Shown piece after piece: positions 352 to 14,710 of a DNA stretch of 36,801 nt. A program made the position numbers and the translations under genes. Source of the stretch: a bacterium (GTDB lineage: Bacteria > Sysuimicrobiota > Sysuimicrobiia > Sysuimicrobiales > Segetimicrobiaceae); NCBI GenBank assembly GCA_035691305.1, contig DASSJF010000068.1, positions 1 to 36,801 on the forward strand, given 5' to 3'. The notes beneath the pieces are model-generated. The model was given only the letters and a program-made list of their open reading frames with translations. It was not told the DNA's origin and did no database searches. Each line of letters starts with the position of its first letter. The stretch's first letter is position 1.

Positions 352-1859
<1,508 letters not shown>

Positions 1860-1876
<17 letters not shown>

Positions 1877-2690
1877 CAGGCTCGGACTGCGGCGGGCCGC
1901 CGCCCAGGTCCCCGACATCGGATGTCGAGCCGGCGCCCGGCACCGCCGCCGGGCCCGTCTCCGCCGCGCGGCCGCGGAGCGAGAACCAGATGGAGAACGA
2001 CAGCACGGCGGCGACGATGCTGAGCGCCTGCGCGAGCGTCAGGGGACCGACCACCCGCGGGCTGTCCATGAAGACTTCAACGATCGCGCGGGCGAGCCCG
2101 TAGAGGGCGAGGAACTCCCAGAAGACGCGGCCGGGAGCGTGCGGACGGTTCACCGCCGGCTGGACGATCGCGAGGATGATGACCGCGGCGAGCATCAGGT
2201 ACAGCTGTGTGGGATGCCGCGGCTCGCCAAAGAGCGTCACCGCCCACGGCACGGACGCGGCGCGCCCGTAGTTCAGGCCGTACATCAAGGTCCCGAGCAT
2301 CGCGATCGCGTAGCCGAGCGCAAGGGCCGGCGCGGCGGCGTCCGCGAGCCAGCCACAGCTCCACCCGCGACGCCGGCTGTACAGCCAGGCGACGATCGCC
2401 CCACCGGCCAACGCCCCGTAGAAGGTGAGTCCCGCGTCGCGCCAGATCGTAAGAACCCGCGCCCAATCCGCGGCAAAATCGCGTAAGTTGACGAGGACGT
2501 AGCCGATGCGCGCGCCGATCACGCCGCCGATGATCGAGTAGAGGCTGAGGTCCAGCACCTCGCCGCCGTCCCACCCCCACTTCGACGTCCGCGTTCGCAG
2601 CAGCAAGATGCCCGCAACGAACGCGACCAGCAGGAATACGCCGAAGGACGATACGGGAAACGGCCCGATCTGGAAGAGCACGGGCTTCAT
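1860..2690 (-). CDS. lgt: Lgt-family prolipoprotein diacylglyceryl transferase, atypical active site
   Basis: Lgt transfers diacylglycerol from phosphatidylglycerol to the lipobox cysteine of pre-lipoproteins in the inner membrane. The 276-residue protein has about seven membrane segments and clear family marks: QIGPFPV at the N-terminus, GARIGYVL (60-67), LPxxY-like PRHPTQLY, and GLARAIVEVF with the Arg and Glu that match E. coli Arg239 and Glu243. The signature region is abnormal: AGRLGNFINGELWG of E. coli aligns with IAMLGTLMYGLNYG (129-142), so Arg143, Asn146 and Glu151 become Met131, Thr134 and Leu139. Tyr26 aligns with Phe16 and His103 with Tyr91. The C-terminal 30 residues are low-complexity. 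It overlaps lspA by four bases (ATGA). The family is clear; whether it has Lgt activity is in doubt. Confidence 0.85.
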
Positions 2691-3169
2691 CCTTCACCCC
2701 CTCTGTCGCGGAGCAATGCCAAGATCAGCAGCCCGGCCCCCAGGACAATGGCGGAGTCCGCCAGGTTGAACACCGGCCACACATGAACGTCGAGGTAATC
2801 GATGACGTACCCGAAGCGCAACCGCTCGACAACGTTGGCGGCCGCGCCGCCGAGCACCAGCCCGAGCCCCCATCGGACCGCGGTGGTCCGTGGCCACGCG
2901 TCCCTATTGTAGAGGGCGACGGCGAGGACGGTCAAGGCGAGCGCGACGATCGTCGCCGGCGGCAGGCCACGCAGCAGGCTGAAGGCGATGCCGGTGTTAT
3001 ATACAAGCGTGAGCGAGAGCACGCCCGGCACGAGGACCCGCTCGGCGCCCGGCGTCAGCGACGACTGCGCCGCGGCGTCCGCGGCGAGCGATCCGCCGCA
3101 CGCCGCCGCGAACGCGGCGGCGCCGGCCACCCACCCTGCCCCCGGCCCCCCCGCCGCGCCCCGGCGCAT
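2687..3169 (-). CDS. lspA: LspA, signal peptidase II
   Basis: LspA is the membrane aspartyl protease that cuts the signal peptide from diacylglyceryl-prolipoproteins. At 160 residues it has the expected four membrane helices. VYNTGIAFSLL (56-66) is the conserved NxGxAF box. The two catalytic aspartates are in GYVIDYLD (Asp124) and FNLADSAI (Asp138). The usual DR in GNxxDR is ER here, which is tolerated in the family. The N-terminal helix is Ala/Gly-rich and lacks the common DxxTK. It starts 38 bases after the DksA/TraR gene and overlaps lgt by ATGA, so the two lipoprotein-maturation steps are coded side by side. Confidence 0.93.
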   Translation of the reverse strand: MRRGAAGGPGAGWVAGAAAFAAACGGSLAADAAAQSSLTPGAERVLVPGVLSLTLVYNTGIAFSLLRGLPPATIVALALTVLAVALYNRDAWPRTTAVRWGLGLVLGGAAANVVERLRFGYVIDYLDVHVWPVFNLADSAIVLGAGLLILALLRDRGGEG

Positions 3170-3207
3170 CTTCGGCTCGCGCCGCGGGTCCTGGGGGTGC
3201 CGGCTGC

Positions 3208-3843
3208 TCAGCGCATCGCGCTGCGCAGCCGCTCTTCGCGCTCCTTACATTTGATGCACAGACGCGCGTACGGAATCGCCCGGAGCCGGTTGGCGTCGAT
3301 CAGGCGCCCGCATCCGTCGCACACGCCATACGTCCCGCTGCGGCCGCGCCGTAGCGCGTCTTCCACCATCTGAAGCATGCCCTGGACGCTGCTCTCGAGC
3401 GCCATGCCCTTTTCCCGCTCGAAGGTCTCGGTGGCCACGTCGACGAGATCGTCATCGTAGCTGCCCGAGACGTCCGCGACGGGCTTTTCTTCGGTCTTCA
3501 CCTGGTGCTGCTCCATCTCCGCCAGCTCCTGCCGGAGACGGCGGCGCTCGTCCATCAACCGGCGCATATACGGCTCCAGCCGGGGACCCGACAGACCGCG
3601 CGCACGCACCACCGGCTTCGGCTGCTGTTCGGGCGGCGCCGCCGGGCGGGCGGTGGCTCGCGCCCCTCGGGCGCCGTTCTTCGTCGCGATCGGGCGGGCG
3701 GCCGGGACCTTCGGCACCTTCACCGCGCTCCGGGATGCCGCGGTGCGAGGCTCCGCGGCTTTGATTACACGATTGCCGGCCGCGGGTCGGCCGGCGCGGA
3801 CGCCGGCGGCACGGGGCTTTTTAGAGGAACGACCTGGGGCCAT
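3208..3843 (-). CDS. TraR/DksA-family zinc-finger protein
   Basis: The C-terminus has a C4 zinc finger of the DksA/TraR type: Cys175-x2-Cys178 and Cys196-x2-Cys199 within YGVCDGCG and ARLCIKCKE. Before it lies a coiled-coil segment (about 85-165) with many Glu and Arg residues. DksA acts in the secondary channel of RNA polymerase; in Firmicutes-like genomes a TraR/DksA-like protein (YteA/YlyA type) is often coded next to ileS and lspA, as here. The first 80 residues are an Ala/Lys/Arg/Pro-rich basic extension with no recognisable fold, probably disordered and nucleic-acid binding. The start ATG directly follows the TGA of the upstream racemase with no gap. The family is certain; the exact role (polymerase modulator or other) is inferred. 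Confidence 0.88.
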   Translation of the reverse strand: MAPGRSSKKPRAAGVRAGRPAAGNRVIKAAEPRTAASRSAVKVPKVPAARPIATKNGARGARATARPAAPPEQQPKPVVRARGLSGPRLEPYMRRLMDERRRLRQELAEMEQHQVKTEEKPVADVSGSYDDDLVDVATETFEREKGMALESSVQGMLQMVEDALRRGRSGTYGVCDGCGRLIDANRLRAIPYARLCIKCKEREERLRSAMR

Positions 3844-4617
3844 TCAGTGCCTCCTCGCGGGGCCGATCGACGCCCCGATACTCCCTTGCGAACGCTCTCG
3901 ATCTGAGTGATATTCCCCCAAACCCTCGCGAACCGCGGCCCGCGCCAAGATCTCGGTGCCGTCCAACACGGGCACGGCCACGTCGCCGGAGCCGAGGATC
4001 AACGGCACCTCGGTGCAGCCCAACACGACTACCCCGGCGCCCGCTCGAACGAGCGCGTCCGCGACACCGCGGACGCGCGCACGCACCTCCGGACCGGTGT
4101 CGCCGGCCTTCACCGACGCGATCGCCTCCGAGACCACCCGCTGCCCCTCGGCGTCGGGGGCCATCACCCCGATGCCGCGGCGGTCCAGGGCCGCCTGATA
4201 CAGGCGCTGCCGGACGGTTCCGGACGTCGCGAGCAACCCCGCCGCCGCCGGCGGCGGTCGCAGCGCAGCCGCGCTCGACGCCACCTCTTCCATAATATCC
4301 AGCACCGGAACGCCGGGTACCGCGCGCCGGATCTCATCAATGAAGGCGTGCGCGGAGTTGCACGGGATCGCGAGCACCTCCGCCCCGGCCGCGACGAGCC
4401 GCCGCGCCGTTTCGACCAACGCCGGGGTCGGGTCGGGTCCGCGGCCCTCGATGGCGGCGGTCCGGTCGGGGATGCCGGTGTTGCTGTCGATCAGCACGTG
4501 GAGGTGGTCCTGGTCCTTCGCCGCCGGCGTCGCGCGCACGAACCGCATGTAGAAGTCCGCCGTGGCGAGCGGCCCCATGCCCCCGATCACGCCGATCGTG
4601 CGCCGCCGGCCGCTCAC
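3844..4617 (-). CDS. Aspartate/glutamate racemase family protein
   Basis: The 257-residue protein belongs to the cofactor-independent Asp/Glu racemase superfamily. Both catalytic cysteines are present: Cys86 in AIPCNSAH and Cys201 in VLGCTEVPL. The N-terminal IGVIGGMGPLATADFY matches the aspartate racemase (RacX/YgeA-like) branch better than MurI glutamate racemase. It would interconvert L- and D-amino acids, possibly for peptidoglycan or cell-wall turnover; the substrate cannot be read from the sequence. The GTG start overlaps the ileS stop (GTGA), and its stop abuts the next gene, so it is co-transcribed in the T-box unit. It is an addition to the usual ileS-dksA/traR order. The last 25 residues are variable. 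Confidence 0.88.
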   Translation of the reverse strand: MSGRRRTIGVIGGMGPLATADFYMRFVRATPAAKDQDHLHVLIDSNTGIPDRTAAIEGRGPDPTPALVETARRLVAAGAEVLAIPCNSAHAFIDEIRRAVPGVPVLDIMEEVASSAAALRPPPAAAGLLATSGTVRQRLYQAALDRRGIGVMAPDAEGQRVVSEAIASVKAGDTGPEVRARVRGVADALVRAGAGVVVLGCTEVPLILGSGDVAVPVLDGTEILARAAVREGLGEYHSDRERSQGSIGASIGPARRH

Positions 4618-7600
4618 GCCGGTCCCCTCCGCGTGCCGGCCGCGCCCGCCTCCCTGGCGATTCCTAGGGTCACGGTCTGCGAATCCAGCCGCACGGCCTT
4701 GGCGTGGGCGCCGCCCGCCGGCATGCCCTGCACCGCGGACACCGCCAGGACCTCGCGCAAGATCGTCTCGCCGTGCGCCCGCAGCAGCCGCGGCAGGCGG
4801 TCATCCCCCTCGTAGTACAGGGTGATCCGGTCAGAGATCTCGAGCCCGGCTTCCTTGCGCATCTGCTGCACCTGGTGGACGAGCTCGCGGGCGAGGCCCT
4901 CGAGAACGAGATCCTCGGTCACCTTCGTATCGAGCACCACCCAGGCGGTGCCCTCGCCGGCGCCCGCGGCGCCGTCGCGCCAGCGCATCCGCACGTCGAC
5001 CTCGGCGCGCTCCAGCACGATCTCCGCGCCGTCCGCCGTGCGCACGCGGTACGGCTCGCCCTCCGGCGTCTGCTCGACCAGCGCCTGGCCCTGGGCGCGG
5101 AGGGCCTCGGCGACCGCGGTGATGCGCCCGCCGAATTTGGGGCCCAGCAGGTCGAAGCGCGGGCGCACCTCCAGCCGGCCGAGCTCGCCGAGCGACGTCG
5201 CGAACCGCACCTCGCGGACGTTCAGCTCGTCCTTCAACAGTTCGATCAGCTCGGCGCGGCCCGCGACGGTCTTGGACCGGTCGAGCAGCGTCGCCGAGGC
5301 CAAGGGCTGGCGGACCTTGAGCTTCGCCTCGTTGCGCGCCGCGCGGCCGAGATAGACGAAATGCCGCGTCTGCTCCATCGCCTGCTCGAGCCCCGCGTCG
5401 AGCGCCGGCTCGTCGGGGACGGGCATCGCGCACAGATGCACGCTCGCCGGAGCGGCGGCGTCGACGGCGCGGACGAGGTTCTGATGCAGGGCTTCGCTGA
5501 GGAACGGCACGAACGGCGCGAGCACGCGCGACAGCGTCACGAGCACCTCGTAGAGCGTCTCGTACGCGGCCTGCTTGTCGGCGTCCGCCTCCGACTTCCA
5601 GTACCGGCGGCGGCCCCGGCGCACGTACCACAGCGACAGATCGTCCACGAACCGCTCGATGGGCCGCGCGGCGCCCGCCACGTCGTAGACGTCGAGCCGG
5701 CTCCGGACGGTGCCGACCACGTCCGCGAGGCGCGACAAAATCCAGCGATCCAGCAGCGACGGCGAGCCGGCCCTGTGCCCGGGCGTCCAGCCGTCGAGGT
5801 TCGCGTAGGTGACGAAGAACGCGTAGACGTTCCACAGCGGCAGGATGAAGCGCCGCCGCACCTCGTCGCCGGGGCCGTACCCGAAGTTCACGTTCTGCGC
5901 CGGGTTCTGGATGGCGTAGAGCCAGCGGATCACGTCCGCGCCCATCCGCTCCGCCGCGTCGTTGAACTCGATCATGTTGCCCCAGGACTTGTGCATCTCG
6001 CGGCCGGTCTCGTCCCGCACCATCGCGTGGCCGAGGCAGGTGAGGAACGGCGGCCGGTCCTCGAGGACGGTACTCATGACCAGCATCGAGTAGAACCAGT
6101 TGCGGTACTGTCCGGGGAACGCCTCGGTGATGAAATCGGCGGGAAACCACTCCCGCCACTTCGCCGGGTCTTGCCGGTAGAACATCGTCGAGAACGGCAC
6201 GATGCCCGCGTCGAGCCACGGGTTGCCGACGTCCTGAACGCGCGACACGACGGCGCCGCACTTCCCGCAGCGGATCTTGACCGCGTCGATCCACGGCCGG
6301 TGCGGAGTATGGCCCTCGAACGCGTCCCACCCCTCGACGGCGCGCACGCGCAACTCGTGCTCGCTGCCGATCACCTCGAAGGTCCCGCACGCCCGGCATT
6401 CGTAGATCGGCAGGGCCAGGCCCCAGTACCGCTTCTTGCTGATCATCCAGTCGTGCATGTTGCGGAGCCAGTCGAGCTCGCGCTCGAGCCCGAACTCCGG
6501 GATCCAGGTGATCCGGCGGGTCACCGCCATCATCGGCTCGCGCAGCGAGTCCATGGCGATGAACCACTCGTCGACGAGCCGGAAGACGAGCTCGCTGCCG
6601 CACCGCCAGCACATCGGATAGCGGTGCGTGTACTCGTCGGCCCGATACAGGAGGCCGCGCTGCTCGAGATCGTCCTTGATCGGCGAAGCGACCTCGTAGA
6701 CGTGCCGGCCGCTCAGGCGCCCGAACGACTCGGTGAAGATCCCGAACTCGTCGATCGGGGCGAGCACGTCGAGGCCGTGCTCCTTGCCGAGCGCGAAGTC
6801 CTCGGCGCCGGCGCCCGGGGCGATGTGGACGAGCCCGGTGCCTTCGGCCGCGCTCACGTCCGTCCAGGGGATGACGCGGTGGGTGATGCCCTGCTGCGCG
6901 GGGAGACCGTCAAACGGCCCCTCGTAGGTCCACCCCACGAGCTCCCGTCCCGGAAGCTCCCGGACGACCGTCACCTTCGCCCGGCCGGCGGTCGTCGCCT
7001 CGAGGCGGTCCTTCGCGACGTAGTAGCTCGTCCCGCCGCGTTCCTTCACCTGGACGTACGTGAGGTCGGGGTTCACCGCGACCGCGACGTTGCTGGTGAG
7101 CGTCCACGGCGTGGTCGTCCAGACCAGCAGGTATTCGCCGGTTCGCCCCGCGACCGGCAGGCGCACCGTGAGACTGAGGTGCGTGACCTCCTGGTAGCCC
7201 TCCGTGACGATCTCGTGCTCGGAGATGCCGGTGCTGCACCGTGGGCACCACGGCATCACGTCGTGGCCCTTGTAAACGAGACCGCGCTCCCAGCACCGCT
7301 TCAGGAACAACCAGATCGAGTAGTTGTTCTCGTCGGACATCGTGTAGTACGAGTTGTTCCAGTCCATCCAGTAGCCGAGCCGGATGGACTGCTGCGTCTG
7401 CACGCCGGCGAACCGGAGCACGCGGGCCTTGCAGCGTTCGACGAACTCCGCGATCCCGTACTGCTCGATGTCGCGCTTGCTCTTGAAACCGAGCTCCTTC
7501 TCGACCTCCACCTCGACCCACAGGCCCTGGCAGTCGAAGCCGTTCTGGTAGCGCTGCCGGTGGCCGAGCATCGTGTGGTACCGGCAGAACAGGTCCTTGT

Positions 7601-7796
7601 ACGTTCGACCCCAGGCGTGGTGCACGCCCATCGGGTTGTTGGCGGTGATGGGTCCGTCGAGAAAGGACCAGCGCTCGGTCGCATCGCGATTCTTCGCGAT
7701 GTAGCGGCCGATCACGCCCTCGCGGGTCCACCACTCCAGAAGTTCCCGCTCCTGCGCCGGAAAGTTCGCGCGCGGATCGACAGGCCGAAACGCCAT
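4614..7796 (-). CDS. ileS: Isoleucyl-tRNA synthetase, type 2, with swapped HxGH motif
   Basis: IleRS charges tRNA-Ile with isoleucine in the cytoplasm. The protein has 1060 residues, with the class I Rossmann domain, an inserted CP1 editing domain (TTPWTLTSNVAVAVNP), and a long C-terminal anticodon-binding part of the eukaryote-like type 2 form. The first signature reads GVHH at residues 57-60 (TANNPMGVHHAWGRT) where HxGH is standard, so the first and third positions are exchanged. The KMSKS loop is EMHKSWGN (Met601, Lys603, Ser604). Zinc-type pairs occur in PWCPRC and RCGKCG. The ATG at 7796 is chosen for its AAAGGAG site nine bases upstream and its place just after the T-box terminator; the frame is open to 7898 inside the leader. 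It leads a seven-gene unit. Confidence 0.97.
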   Translation of the reverse strand: MAFRPVDPRANFPAQERELLEWWTREGVIGRYIAKNRDATERWSFLDGPITANNPMGVHHAWGRTYKDLFCRYHTMLGHRQRYQNGFDCQGLWVEVEVEKELGFKSKRDIEQYGIAEFVERCKARVLRFAGVQTQQSIRLGYWMDWNNSYYTMSDENNYSIWLFLKRCWERGLVYKGHDVMPWCPRCSTGISEHEIVTEGYQEVTHLSLTVRLPVAGRTGEYLLVWTTTPWTLTSNVAVAVNPDLTYVQVKERGGTSYYVAKDRLEATTAGRAKVTVVRELPGRELVGWTYEGPFDGLPAQQGITHRVIPWTDVSAAEGTGLVHIAPGAGAEDFALGKEHGLDVLAPIDEFGIFTESFGRLSGRHVYEVASPIKDDLEQRGLLYRADEYTHRYPMCWRCGSELVFRLVDEWFIAMDSLREPMMAVTRRITWIPEFGLERELDWLRNMHDWMISKKRYWGLALPIYECRACGTFEVIGSEHELRVRAVEGWDAFEGHTPHRPWIDAVKIRCGKCGAVVSRVQDVGNPWLDAGIVPFSTMFYRQDPAKWREWFPADFITEAFPGQYRNWFYSMLVMSTVLEDRPPFLTCLGHAMVRDETGREMHKSWGNMIEFNDAAERMGADVIRWLYAIQNPAQNVNFGYGPGDEVRRRFILPLWNVYAFFVTYANLDGWTPGHRAGSPSLLDRWILSRLADVVGTVRSRLDVYDVAGAARPIERFVDDLSLWYVRRGRRRYWKSEADADKQAAYETLYEVLVTLSRVLAPFVPFLSEALHQNLVRAVDAAAPASVHLCAMPVPDEPALDAGLEQAMEQTRHFVYLGRAARNEAKLKVRQPLASATLLDRSKTVAGRAELIELLKDELNVREVRFATSLGELGRLEVRPRFDLLGPKFGGRITAVAEALRAQGQALVEQTPEGEPYRVRTADGAEIVLERAEVDVRMRWRDGAAGAGEGTAWVVLDTKVTEDLVLEGLARELVHQVQQMRKEAGLEISDRITLYYEGDDRLPRLLRAHGETILREVLAVSAVQGMPAGGAHAKAVRLDSQTVTLGIAREAGAAGTRRGPA

Positions 7797-7819: not shown

Positions 7820-7846
7820 AAAACCCCGTCCGGCAAGGGACGGGGT
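7820..7846 (-). terminator. T-box regulated intrinsic terminator
   Basis: A nine-base-pair hairpin, ACCCCGTCC / GGACGGGGT with loop CTTGCC, is followed by TTTT and then G. It ends 24 bases before the ileS start. It competes with the antiterminator for CCGTCC, as expected for transcriptional control by a T-box. The U-tract is short but the stem is strong. Confidence 0.88.
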
Positions 7847-7863
7847 CGCCGTGGTACCACCCT
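7836..7863 (-). promoter_or_regulatory. T-box antiterminator
   Basis: AGGG pairs with CCCT and ACGG with CCGT, all eight pairs perfect, around the seven-base TGGTACC bulge and a CGACC loop. This is the canonical antiterminator shape. Its 3' half (CCGTCCCT, 7843-7836) is also the 5' half of the terminator, so the two structures exclude each other. Confidence 0.9.
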
Positions 7864-8178
7864 CGTTCCGGGCTCACGCATACCGCAAGTCCCGGCACTC
7901 GTTCGAAACCGGCGCGCGGCTATGCTGTGGCCGAAGCACCCGGTCCGAATCCTGATATCGGAGGATACCGGCGAAACCTCGGGAGGTTGTCCCTGGGCCC
8001 CGCACCTCGGGAGGCGATCGCTGCCGCCGGCTCCGCACCGGCTTTCACCGTTACCCGTTCCGCGTTGGCCCGGGCGGCGGGCTCGTCAACGGCGCCCGCG
8101 AGGTGCCGGCGCAAACGGGTACTCCGGCTCGCTTTTCGGGCCGCGCGGCGGCGGTCCCCCGTCATCGCGTTCCCGCGG

Positions 8179-8207
8179 ATTCTAGCACAGGCCCGCGGGA
8201 GCGTCAA
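8179..8207 (-). promoter_or_regulatory. Housekeeping (sigma-70-type) promoter of the ileS unit
   Basis: TTGACG (8207-8202) and TAGAAT (8184-8179) are separated by 17 bases, nearly consensus and striking in such GC-rich DNA. Transcription should start near 8172, giving a leader of about 375 bases before ileS. The -35 box begins only eight bases after the stop codon of the upstream glycosyltransferase, so there is no room for a terminator between the two units. Confidence 0.85.
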
Positions 8208-11937: not shown

Positions 11938-12744
11938 TTATTCCCTTTGGGCTCGCTCGCACAGCCGGATACAGGCCGCCATGCGTCCGGTCGCGCGTTC
12001 TCGCCGGTACGAGAAGTACAGATCGGGTTCGCAGCGCGTGCACCCAGGCGTCATCTCGACGTGGTCGGGGACTACCCCGACGGCGGCAAGTTGGGCCCGG
12101 ACGGCGACGCGAAGATCGAGATACCACCTGCCGGGCGCCCCCGCCTGCGCCGCGCGATGCCACCACGGTGCGGCCCGCATCGCATCGGCGACCGGACGGT
12201 CGACCTCGTAGCAGCACGAACCAATTGAGGGTCCCAGCGCCACCAGGCAGCGCGCCAGATCGGTCCGAAACGCGGTCCGGAGCGGCGCGAGCGCGGCATG
12301 CACCGTTCCGGCCGCCACCCCGCGCCACCCCACGTGGACGGCGGCCACCGCCGGGCGGCCTGGGTCGAGCACTAGCACGGGGACACAATCCGCCGTGTGA
12401 ACGGCGAGCCACACTCCGGGGCACGCCGTCATGAGCGCGTCGACGCCCGCGACGACGCGGCCCGCGTCGCGGGGCCCCACCACCGCGGCCGAGGTACCGT
12501 GCACCTGTTGCGCTTCGACCAGCCGGCGCGGATCCGCGCCCAGGGCCGCCGCCGCCAGGCGCCGGTTGCGGTCGACCGCGGCCCGGCCGTCGCCGACGGC
12601 ATAGGATAGGTTGAGGCTGCGGTAGGGCCCCCCACCGGTCCCGCCCTGACGGGTCGTGAAGCACGCGCGCGCCAACCCCGTCGCTTCGATCCCGCGGGCC
12701 CGGAGCACCACGGCCGGGCCGGCCGAATTCCGCGCGCCGATCAC
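11938..12744 (-). CDS. pgeF: PgeF/YlmD, peptidoglycan editing factor (multicopper polyphenol oxidase-like fold)
   Basis: Members of this family remove wrongly incorporated residues from UDP-MurNAc precursors or act on purine nucleosides. The metal-binding set is intact: His82 in QQVHGT, Cys120 in [12 protein letters not shown] and His137 in AVHVGWRG, with the spacing of E. coli Yfi[36 protein letters not shown] are also typical. I place the start at the GTG at 12744, which overlaps the phnE stop (GTGA). The same frame stays open far upstream to 14004, but there it runs antiparallel in sense with the Arg-rich composition of a false frame. It begins the conserved pgeF-yggS-sepF run. Confidence 0.92.
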
Positions 12745-13910
12745 AACAGGCGTTCGCGCACCACGGCGCTCCCGTAGTCCAGCACGCCGACGACGATCGC
12801 GATCATCCACAGCGCCGTCGCCGCCTGCGGCCACTGCAGCAGGTTGATGTACTGGAGCAGGATGAATCCGATGCCGCCGCCGCCCACGAACCCGATCACC
12901 GTGCTGAACCGGACGTTGGCGTCCCAGCGGTAGATGGTGAAGGCGATGAACTGCGGGACGATCTGCGGCACCACCGCGTAGCGCACGACCTGCAGCGTGG
13001 TCGCACCGGTCGCCATGATCGCTTCGATCGGCCCGGTATCGATGCTCTCGATCGCCTCCGAATACAGCTTGCCGAGAGTGCCCATGCTGTGCACGCCGAG
13101 GGCGAGCACGCCGGCGAACGGACCGAGGCCCACCCACACCGTGAAGATGATCGCGAGCACGAGCGCCTCGATCGACCGCGTGACGTTGAACGCGAGCCGC
13201 GTCGCGCCGTAGACTGCGCGGCCGGCGGGAAGATGCGCGGTCAGGTTGCGGGCGCCGAGAAACGACAGCGGCACCGAGAACACGACCCCCATCGTGGTGC
13301 CCATCAGCGCCAGAAACACGGTCTCGACCATCCGGCCGCCCACCACGCCGAGGGTCGGGCTCGGCCGCCACGGACCGTACCCGGTGATGACCTCGGCGAT
13401 GACCATGTTGTGCGTGCCCTGGACGTCGGGCGTCGTGAACGCGGCGTCGAAGCGGCCCTGCGCGTCGATGTGAAAGGTGCCCAACGGTTGGCGTTGGCCG
13501 ATCTGATTCTCCCACCACAGCGTGCCGGTGCGTCCGGCGCCGAACCCGTCGCCGCGCACGGTCACACGCTGTCCGATCGCGCCGGACGCGCGCGACAGGC
13601 CCAGCGCCGGCCCGCCGGCCCCGGGGGGCGGCGGCGGAGTCTCCCCGCCGTAGTAGAACGGCGCGCTCGCCTGCTGCGTCACCGGCGCGCGCGTCACGAC
13701 GTCGGGCGTCGCAAGCGCGACCACGAACGGACGGATGAGCCGCGCCCCGCCCCACAGCTCGCCGAGCCGGATCTGCGTCACGTGCCAGCCGTACGCGTAG
13801 ACGAGCACGGCGGCCACGAGGCCCGCGTAGGCGCGCCACGACCGATACCACGGGACCGGCACGCGCGCCGGACGAGCGCGCGCCGGGGCTTCGGGGACCG
13901 AGCGGGTCAC
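12741..13910 (-). CDS. phnE: PhnE-type ABC transporter permease with an inserted extracytoplasmic domain
   Basis: This is the membrane subunit of a phosphonate/phosphite-type importer. At 389 residues it is about 100 longer than usual. After an Arg/Pro-rich N-terminus and one membrane helix (27-44) comes an inserted segment, about 70-190. Its core (101-175: SGAIGQRVTVRGDGFGAG, then DAQGRFDAAFTTP) resembles an IPT/TIG-type beta-sandwich and would face outward. The standard permease domain follows (about 192-389) with five helices and the coupling motif near EAIMATGATTLQVVRYAVVPQI. ATGA overlaps phnC upstream and GTGA links to pgeF downstream. The permease call is firm; the insert's fold and role are inferred. 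Confidence 0.9.
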   Translation of the reverse strand: MTRSVPEAPARARPARVPVPWYRSWRAYAGLVAAVLVYAYGWHVTQIRLGELWGGARLIRPFVVALATPDVVTRAPVTQQASAPFYYGGETPPPPPGAGGPALGLSRASGAIGQRVTVRGDGFGAGRTGTLWWENQIGQRQPLGTFHIDAQGRFDAAFTTPDVQGTHNMVIAEVITGYGPWRPSPTLGVVGGRMVETVFLALMGTTMGVVFSVPLSFLGARNLTAHLPAGRAVYGATRLAFNVTRSIEALVLAIIFTVWVGLGPFAGVLALGVHSMGTLGKLYSEAIESIDTGPIEAIMATGATTLQVVRYAVVPQIVPQFIAFTIYRWDANVRFSTVIGFVGGGGIGFILLQYINLLQWPQAATALWMIAIVVGVLDYGSAVVRERLL

Positions 13911-14710
13911 CGGATCTCGACCTCCTCCGCCTGTTCGCCGTAGATCTCATGGAAGCGCGCGTCGTCGATGTCGCCGGGCCGGCCTTCGAAGACGATGCGG
14001 CCATCCTTGAGCGCGAGGAGGCGCGTCCCGTACCGCCGGGCCAGGCTCAAGAAATGAAGGCAGCACAGGATGGTGATGCCGTCGTTCCGGTTCAGGTCCT
14101 CGAGGTAGTGAAGGATGGAATGGGACAGCGCGGGGTCGAGGCTCGCGACCGGCTCGTCGGCGAGAATCAGCCGCGGTCGCTGCATCAAGGCCCGCGCGAT
14201 GCCCACGCGCTGCTGCTGGCCGCCGGAGAGCGCCGAGGCCCGCCCGTATGCCTTGTCCGCGATGCCCACGCGCTCGAGGTTGCTCATCGCCCGCGCGACG
14301 GCCGCGGGCGGGAAGTAGTTCACGACGGCCCACGCCGGCGGCACGTAGCCGAGGTCCCCGGCGAGCACGTTCGTCAACACCGACGCGCGGCGGACCAGGT
14401 TGAACTGCTGAAAGATCATCCCGATGCCGCGCCGGATCTCGCGGAGCTCGTCGCGGGACGCCGCGGTTACGTCCCGGCCGTCGACCACCACGCGGCCGGA
14501 CGTCGGCTGGACGAGGCGGTTGATGCACCGCAGCAGCGTCGACTTGCCGGATCCCGACAGCCCGATGATGACAAGAAATTCGCCGCGGGCGACCTCGAAC
14601 GACACGTCCGAAAGCGCCCGCGTGCCGTCCTCGTAGACTTTGCTGAGGTGTTCGACCCGGAGGACGCGATCGTCTACCCCGTGTGCACCGCCTCGCGGGC
14701 GGTCACTCAC
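13907..14710 (-). CDS. phnC: PhnC-type ABC transporter ATP-binding protein
   Basis: This is the cytoplasmic ATPase of the importer, 267 residues. It has the Walker A motif GLSGSGKST, the Q-loop IFQQFNLV, the signature LSGGQQQR, Walker B LILADEP and the switch His in CCLHFLSLA. The PhnC mark [13 protein letters not shown] resembles the NVL.G.L family stretch just after the Q-loop. The last residues (EEVEIR) overlap phnE by ATGA. It lies 67 bases after phnD. Since no C-P lyase or phosphite dehydrogenase gene is nearby, the substrate (phosphonate, phosphite or phosphate) is uncertain. Confidence 0.94.

Follow-up and report, generated by a model that had tools for sequence, protein, structure and literature searches.

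A housekeeping type 2 isoleucyl-tRNA synthetase with GVHH and EMHKS in place of the class I signature motifs

Type 2 isoleucyl-tRNA synthetases and mupirocin

Type 2 isoleucyl-tRNA synthetases (IleRS2) that carry G/AXHH where class I enzymes normally have HxGH were described by Brkic et al. 2023, who linked this arrangement to inhibition constants (Ki) for mupirocin in the millimolar range (PMC10485003). Swapping HVGH and GVHH or ALHH in type 2 enzymes alters the Ki for this inhibitor some 200- to 800-fold at a mild catalytic cost (PMC10485003). The natural ALHH enzyme of D. radiodurans has a Ki of 6.6 mM (PMC10485003), and that of S. griseus IleRS2, whose motif is GXHH according to PMC10485003, is 10 mM (PMC4861432). 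Together with two engineered mutants, built on the P. megaterium and T. thermophilus backbones, these are the GXHH or AXHH enzymes that have been measured (PMC10485003, PMC4861432). In type 2 enzymes, the distance between the third motif residue and the adenine is larger by 1.7 A, so that a His at this position can replace the first one, and it is this His that clashes with mupirocin (PMC10485003). The proposed clash depends on a closed KMSKS loop that pushes the HIGH helix back (PMC10485003). The first Lys of KMSKS (hereafter Lys-1) has a role described in another class I enzyme, the LeuRS of E. coli, where it contacts the penultimate base of the tRNA (PMC5059758).

The ileS gene and its surroundings

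The gene studied here is located in a contig of a Sysuimicrobiota genome assembly (DASSJF010000068.1, 36,801 nucleotides), the whole of which is referred to as the window. Its coding sequence and downstream neighbours are as follows.

4614..7796, minus strand: ileS coding sequence, type 2 isoleucyl-tRNA synthetase of 1060 aa, starting with the ATG at 7796 (TIGR00392)
4656..5240, minus strand: C-terminal DUF5915 domain, aa 853-1047 (PF19302, 143 bits)
914..4617, minus strand: downstream genes for a racemase-like protein, a DksA/TraR zinc finger protein, lspA, lgt, and an rluD-like pseudouridine synthase (Pfam)

The protein scores 711 bits against TIGR00392, for which the curated cut-off is 621.4. 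The ATG at 7796 is preceded by AAGGAG and was retained as the start, the mechanically assigned GTG at 7898 (an ORF of 1094 aa) being rejected because it sits within the T-box leader described below. A DUF5915 domain and the absence of C-terminal zinc-binding cysteines are marks of type 2 IleRS. Besides the DUF5915 tail, no CxxC was found past residue 513 in a scan of the window enzyme; the IleRS1 used for comparison has two at its end. The best relatives of the enzyme are PmIleRS2 and TtIleRS2, and in the tree it groups with IleRS2 and not with IleRS1, all of which bears out the type 2 assignment of an earlier note made on this DNA. The predicted fold comes closest to Priestia megaterium IleRS2, at 35% identity and with its GVHH mutant 8c8w among the matches, followed by the yeast and Thermus enzymes, identities to the closest structures ranging from 35 to 39%. 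In the AlphaFold model (mean pLDDT 81), GVHH is placed at the tip of helix 58-76, with low pLDDT at the motifs, residues 51-54, 88-91, and 601-609 of the motif loops being unreliable. Because it is uncertain exactly there, the model is uninformative on the mupirocin clash.

A profile search of the 3.6-Mb assembly, which is 96% complete, found a single ileS, the other hits being ValRS and LeuRS. The suggestion that this is possibly the sole IleRS of its host was thus upheld, although at this level of completeness a second ileS could be missing. Upstream of ileS and on the same strand, Pfam matches identified sepF, a YggS-type gene, a gene for a laccase-domain protein, an IF-2B-family gene that is probably mtnA, and a glycosyltransferase gene. 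These surroundings, from sepF through ileS to lspA, lgt, and the rluD-type gene, are an ordinary housekeeping setting, and PADLOC reported nothing. The laccase gene (11938-14004, minus strand) is a 688-aa ORF whose Cu-oxidase_4 domain occupies the last third only; nothing in Pfam matches its first 450 residues, which may stem from a misassigned start or form an additional domain.

A T-box leader upstream of ileS

The leader region of ileS contains the following elements.

8179..8207, minus strand: putative promoter TTGACG ... TAGAAT preceding the leader, conserved in relatives
7820..8168, minus strand: T-box leader of ileS (weak Rfam match and order-wide alignment of 21 leaders)
8016..8018, minus strand: AUC (Ile) specifier codon, an invariant column in 21/21 leaders
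7849..7867, minus strand: T-box sequence AACGAGGGTGGTACCACGG, antiterminator (Rfam match, alignment)
7820..7845, minus strand: intrinsic terminator CCCCGTCC..GGACGGGGTTTT (leader alignment)

The match of this leader to the Rfam T-box model RF00230 (23.9 bits, E 0.0017) is below the gathering score of 93 bits, whereas the leader of a relative (L122) in the same alignment reaches 106.7 bits, above the Rfam threshold. The assignment was accepted on comparative grounds, the Rfam threshold not being passed: the promoter, the T-box AGGGTGGTACC, the terminator, and the AUC specifier are common to the window leader and to 20 leaders from the same order. The gene is therefore predicted to be controlled by a T-box with an AUC specifier, as the earlier note had proposed, its weak Rfam score notwithstanding.

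Both signature motifs are altered

Four sites distinguish the active site of the window enzyme.

7617..7628, minus strand: GVHH replacing the class I HxGH, aa 57-60, codons GGC GTG CAC CAC (alignment)
7524..7538, minus strand: FDCQG, aa 87-91, versus WD[TC]HG of other IleRS (Gln-90 invariant in the group)
7398..7400, minus strand: Gln-133, corresponding to Trp-130 of P. megaterium IleRS2 close to the HIGH motif (alignment)
5985..5999, minus strand: EMHKS replacing KMSKS, aa 600-604 (alignment, group comparison)

In HMMER alignments, GVHH matches column for column both the engineered GVHH of P. megaterium IleRS2 (8c8w) and the wild-type HVGH. The exchange of the first and third positions of HxGH, noticed earlier from the sequence with its strand (minus) left unnamed, is thus real, and the motif is the G/AXHH of PMC10485003, which agrees with the earlier reading that GxHH had been described in hyper-resistant type 2 enzymes. 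A motif scan of the 1060-aa protein found neither H-x-G-H nor KMSK anywhere, so that no normal HxGH lies nearby and GVHH stands, together with the proposed reading of the second loop as EMHKS; [GA]-x-H-H occurs only once. Since the ValRS (HMGH) and LeuRS (HIGH) of the same genome keep ordinary motifs, the change is specific to IleRS.

IleRS sequences were collected from 80 public genome contigs, from the whole phylum of the window genome (43 genomes), and from a spread of 121 genomes of Chloroflexota, the phylum of an Anaerolineae genome. The group of the window enzyme was defined as the sequences with a GPITANNPM-type context, of which 134 are distinct. All of them carry G/A-x-H-H, which shows that GVHH is no sequencing or chance oddity. 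Lys-1 of KMSKS is also gone from every member, being replaced by E (78 sequences), P (32), D (9), A (8), Q (4), L (2), or I (1). Position 3 of this motif is a His in 131 of the 134, and the second Lys is kept in 131 and replaced by Arg in three. FDxQG replaces WD[TC]HG in most of the group, Gln-90 being present in every member. At the position of P. megaterium Trp-130 these enzymes have Gln or Ile in most cases and never Trp. The remaining 55 sequences, mostly of type 2, keep Lys-1 in 53 cases and the Trp in 52; G/A-x-H-H is found in 47 of them and HxGH in seven.

A few members depart from the common pattern. L251, L255, and L257 form a tight subgroup with Ser at position 3 (P/LMSKSKGT), Lys-1 being absent there too. 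L238, L239, and L242 have MHRS, i.e. an Arg for the second, catalytic Lys. Loops of the EMHKS type were considered as a unique mark of the group, an idea that had to be dropped given the archaeal-looking L153, which has QMHKS. This second IleRS of bin G030 (contig C17), whose N-terminus with HIGH is cut off and whose tail carries HHH, zinc ribbons, and DUF835, probably sits on a contaminant contig.

Evolution of the motifs

In a tree computed without the motif columns, the GPITANNPM group forms one branch (SH-aLRT 100). One change is counted on this tree at Lys-1 and six at the HIGH motif. Because the loss of Lys-1 is one event, it provides no statistical evidence of co-evolution with GXHH. 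The idea that EMHKS and GXHH are a required pair was rejected, since KMSKS is retained by GXHH enzymes from the second IleRS2 group, including some from the phylum of the window genome, and since Lys-1 changed only once. Judged from these sequences, EMHKS is a second, group-wide change that is separable from GXHH. Canonical HIGH motifs occur in three IleRS2 nested among GXHH sisters (L122 from G015, L197, and L205), in the phylum of the window genome and in Chloroflexota; these are natural reversions or retentions.

Both GXHH groups of IleRS2, the xMHKS and the KMSKS types, are present in the small G000 phylum (loci L095-L131), even within a single family, f4 (G014 versus G019, G022, G025, G028, and G031). 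AUC T-box leaders are carried by both kinds of IleRS2 in this phylum, and their distribution suggests ileS replacement within it. In two genomes of genus g13, G020 (97% complete) and G041 (89%), ileS was not detected and only ValRS- and LeuRS-type hits were obtained, with two ValRS-like genes in G041; this could be due to an assembly gap or to a divergent enzyme.

Proposed mechanism and alternative explanations

Taken together, the window protein is very probably the housekeeping IleRS of its uncultivated host, of type 2, from a deep group whose active site appears to be built around GXHH. Given its type 2 architecture and identical motif, the enzyme likely relies on its third-position His, His-59, for catalysis and likely binds mupirocin very poorly. 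As judged from the structures of the P. megaterium GVHH mutant, His-59 probably does the transition-state work of the first His of HxGH, a role that the more distant position of the type 2 helix tip from the adenine would make possible. The same residue should clash with bound mupirocin and render the enzyme highly insensitive, and the host would be so too, the GVHH enzyme being its only IleRS. Lys-1 would be dispensable in this group, which keeps the catalytic second Lys; by analogy with E. coli LeuRS, its loss may alter the handling of the tRNA 3' end rather than activation. Mupirocin insensitivity of both enzyme and host is thus likely, and we regard as very probable the overall reading of a housekeeping, mupirocin-insensitive, T-box-controlled GXHH type 2 IleRS in which EMHKS is a separable change. 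What speaks against this reading is that the published mechanism was derived from enzymes retaining Trp-130 and an unaltered KMSKS loop, two features that differ in the sequence considered here. The P. megaterium and T. thermophilus backbones, as well as an inspected actinobacterial relative of the S. griseus enzyme, keep Lys-1, and no mupirocin Ki or solved structure was found in the literature for any member of the GPITANNPM group.

These differences are the ground for supposing that the window enzyme carries GXHH and yet is not hyper-resistant, the EMHKS loop and Gln-133 altering the seating of mupirocin. The clash depends on a closed KMSKS loop, which differs throughout the group, but all tested GXHH or AXHH type 2 enzymes, on four backbones, bind mupirocin much more weakly, and it is unlikely that binding would be restored through the loss of Lys-1; we consider this explanation improbable. 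Still less credible, to the point of being nearly dismissed, is an acquired, mobile mupA-like resistance synthetase beside a normal IleRS. Although the MupA and MupB models match the protein at about 600 bits, the scores (608 and 583 bits) are far below the NCBIfam cut-off of 1900, MupA itself (L174) has HTGH and KMSKS, and the assembly has a single ileS, which lies in a housekeeping neighbourhood and has a T-box conserved in relatives. Within the limits of the assembly, a mobile mupA-like gene was rejected on the basis of the model scores, the motifs of MupA, and the neighbourhood.

A different matter is why the motif is there. GXHH could be an ancient structural feature of the group, unrelated to antibiotic selection, with mupirocin resistance as a by-product. 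All sequences (134/134) of a deep group that spans several phyla, most of its bacteria being uncultivated, have the motif; it came with other active-site changes, and according to the reconstruction in PMC10485003 the ancestor of the minor clade of IleRS2 had GXHH. On the other hand, members of the other IleRS2 group have switched motif repeatedly (six changes counted on the tree), a pattern expected under fluctuating selection. An ancient origin seems to us slightly on the probable side, and it disputes only the cause of the resistance, not the resistance itself. The window enzyme shows that the swapped HIGH motif, far from being a rare resistance allele, is fixed in a broad bacterial group that carries it in its housekeeping IleRS; inhibitors of the mupirocin type would therefore probably be of no use against members of this group. 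A more far-reaching proposal, put forward tentatively and rather doubtful in its full extent, is that the GPITANNPM group (Sysuimicrobiota-like bacteria, Chloroflexota, and several candidate phyla) has rewritten its active site in both signature motifs, with His-3 for His-1, Lys-1 lost, mostly a His at position 3 of KMSKS, and FDxQG for WD[TC]HG, so that activation chemistry and tRNA 3'-end handling would be distributed over its residues in another way than in every structurally studied IleRS. With both class I motifs changed in an unstudied group, a natural enzyme offers a direct test of what the first His and Lys-1 do.

Comparison with known systems

The closest described systems are the G/AXHH type 2 IleRS of PMC10485003, with which the window enzyme shares the swap of the first and third HxGH positions and the type 2 architecture. 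By contrast, the loss of Lys-1, the His at position 3, FDxQG, and Gln-133 of the window's group are not discussed in the main text of that paper, and none of the enzymes assayed there is identified in that text as a member of this group. A literature search for MHKS loops returned nothing relevant; the loss of Lys-1 with a His at position 3 may nevertheless be visible in published alignments. As far as the text of PMC10485003 allows the comparison, its minor IleRS2 clade is probably the one to which the window enzyme belongs; GXHH was inferred for the ancestor of this clade, apparently the one linked there to Planctomycetota/Chloroflexi.

Among individual enzymes, P. megaterium IleRS2 (8c8v, wild type; 8c8w, GVHH mutant) provides the best structural matches over the whole length of the fold, and the GVHH of the mutant is identical, whereas the wild type has HVGH, an intact KMSKS, and Trp-130 where the window enzyme has Gln-133. 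S. griseus IleRS2 (PMC4861432) has GXHH in common with it; the actinobacterial relative of the S. griseus enzyme from Nonomuraea (L173) falls into the other group, with KMSKH and Lys-1 kept. MupA of staphylococcal plasmids is likewise a type 2 IleRS (33% identity), but it is a plasmid-borne second copy with canonical HTGH and KMSKS. The loss of Lys-1 with a His at position 3 merits a biochemical look rather than the claim of a new system. GXHH has already been described, and the window protein adds to it a member from a neglected branch in which more of the active site has changed.
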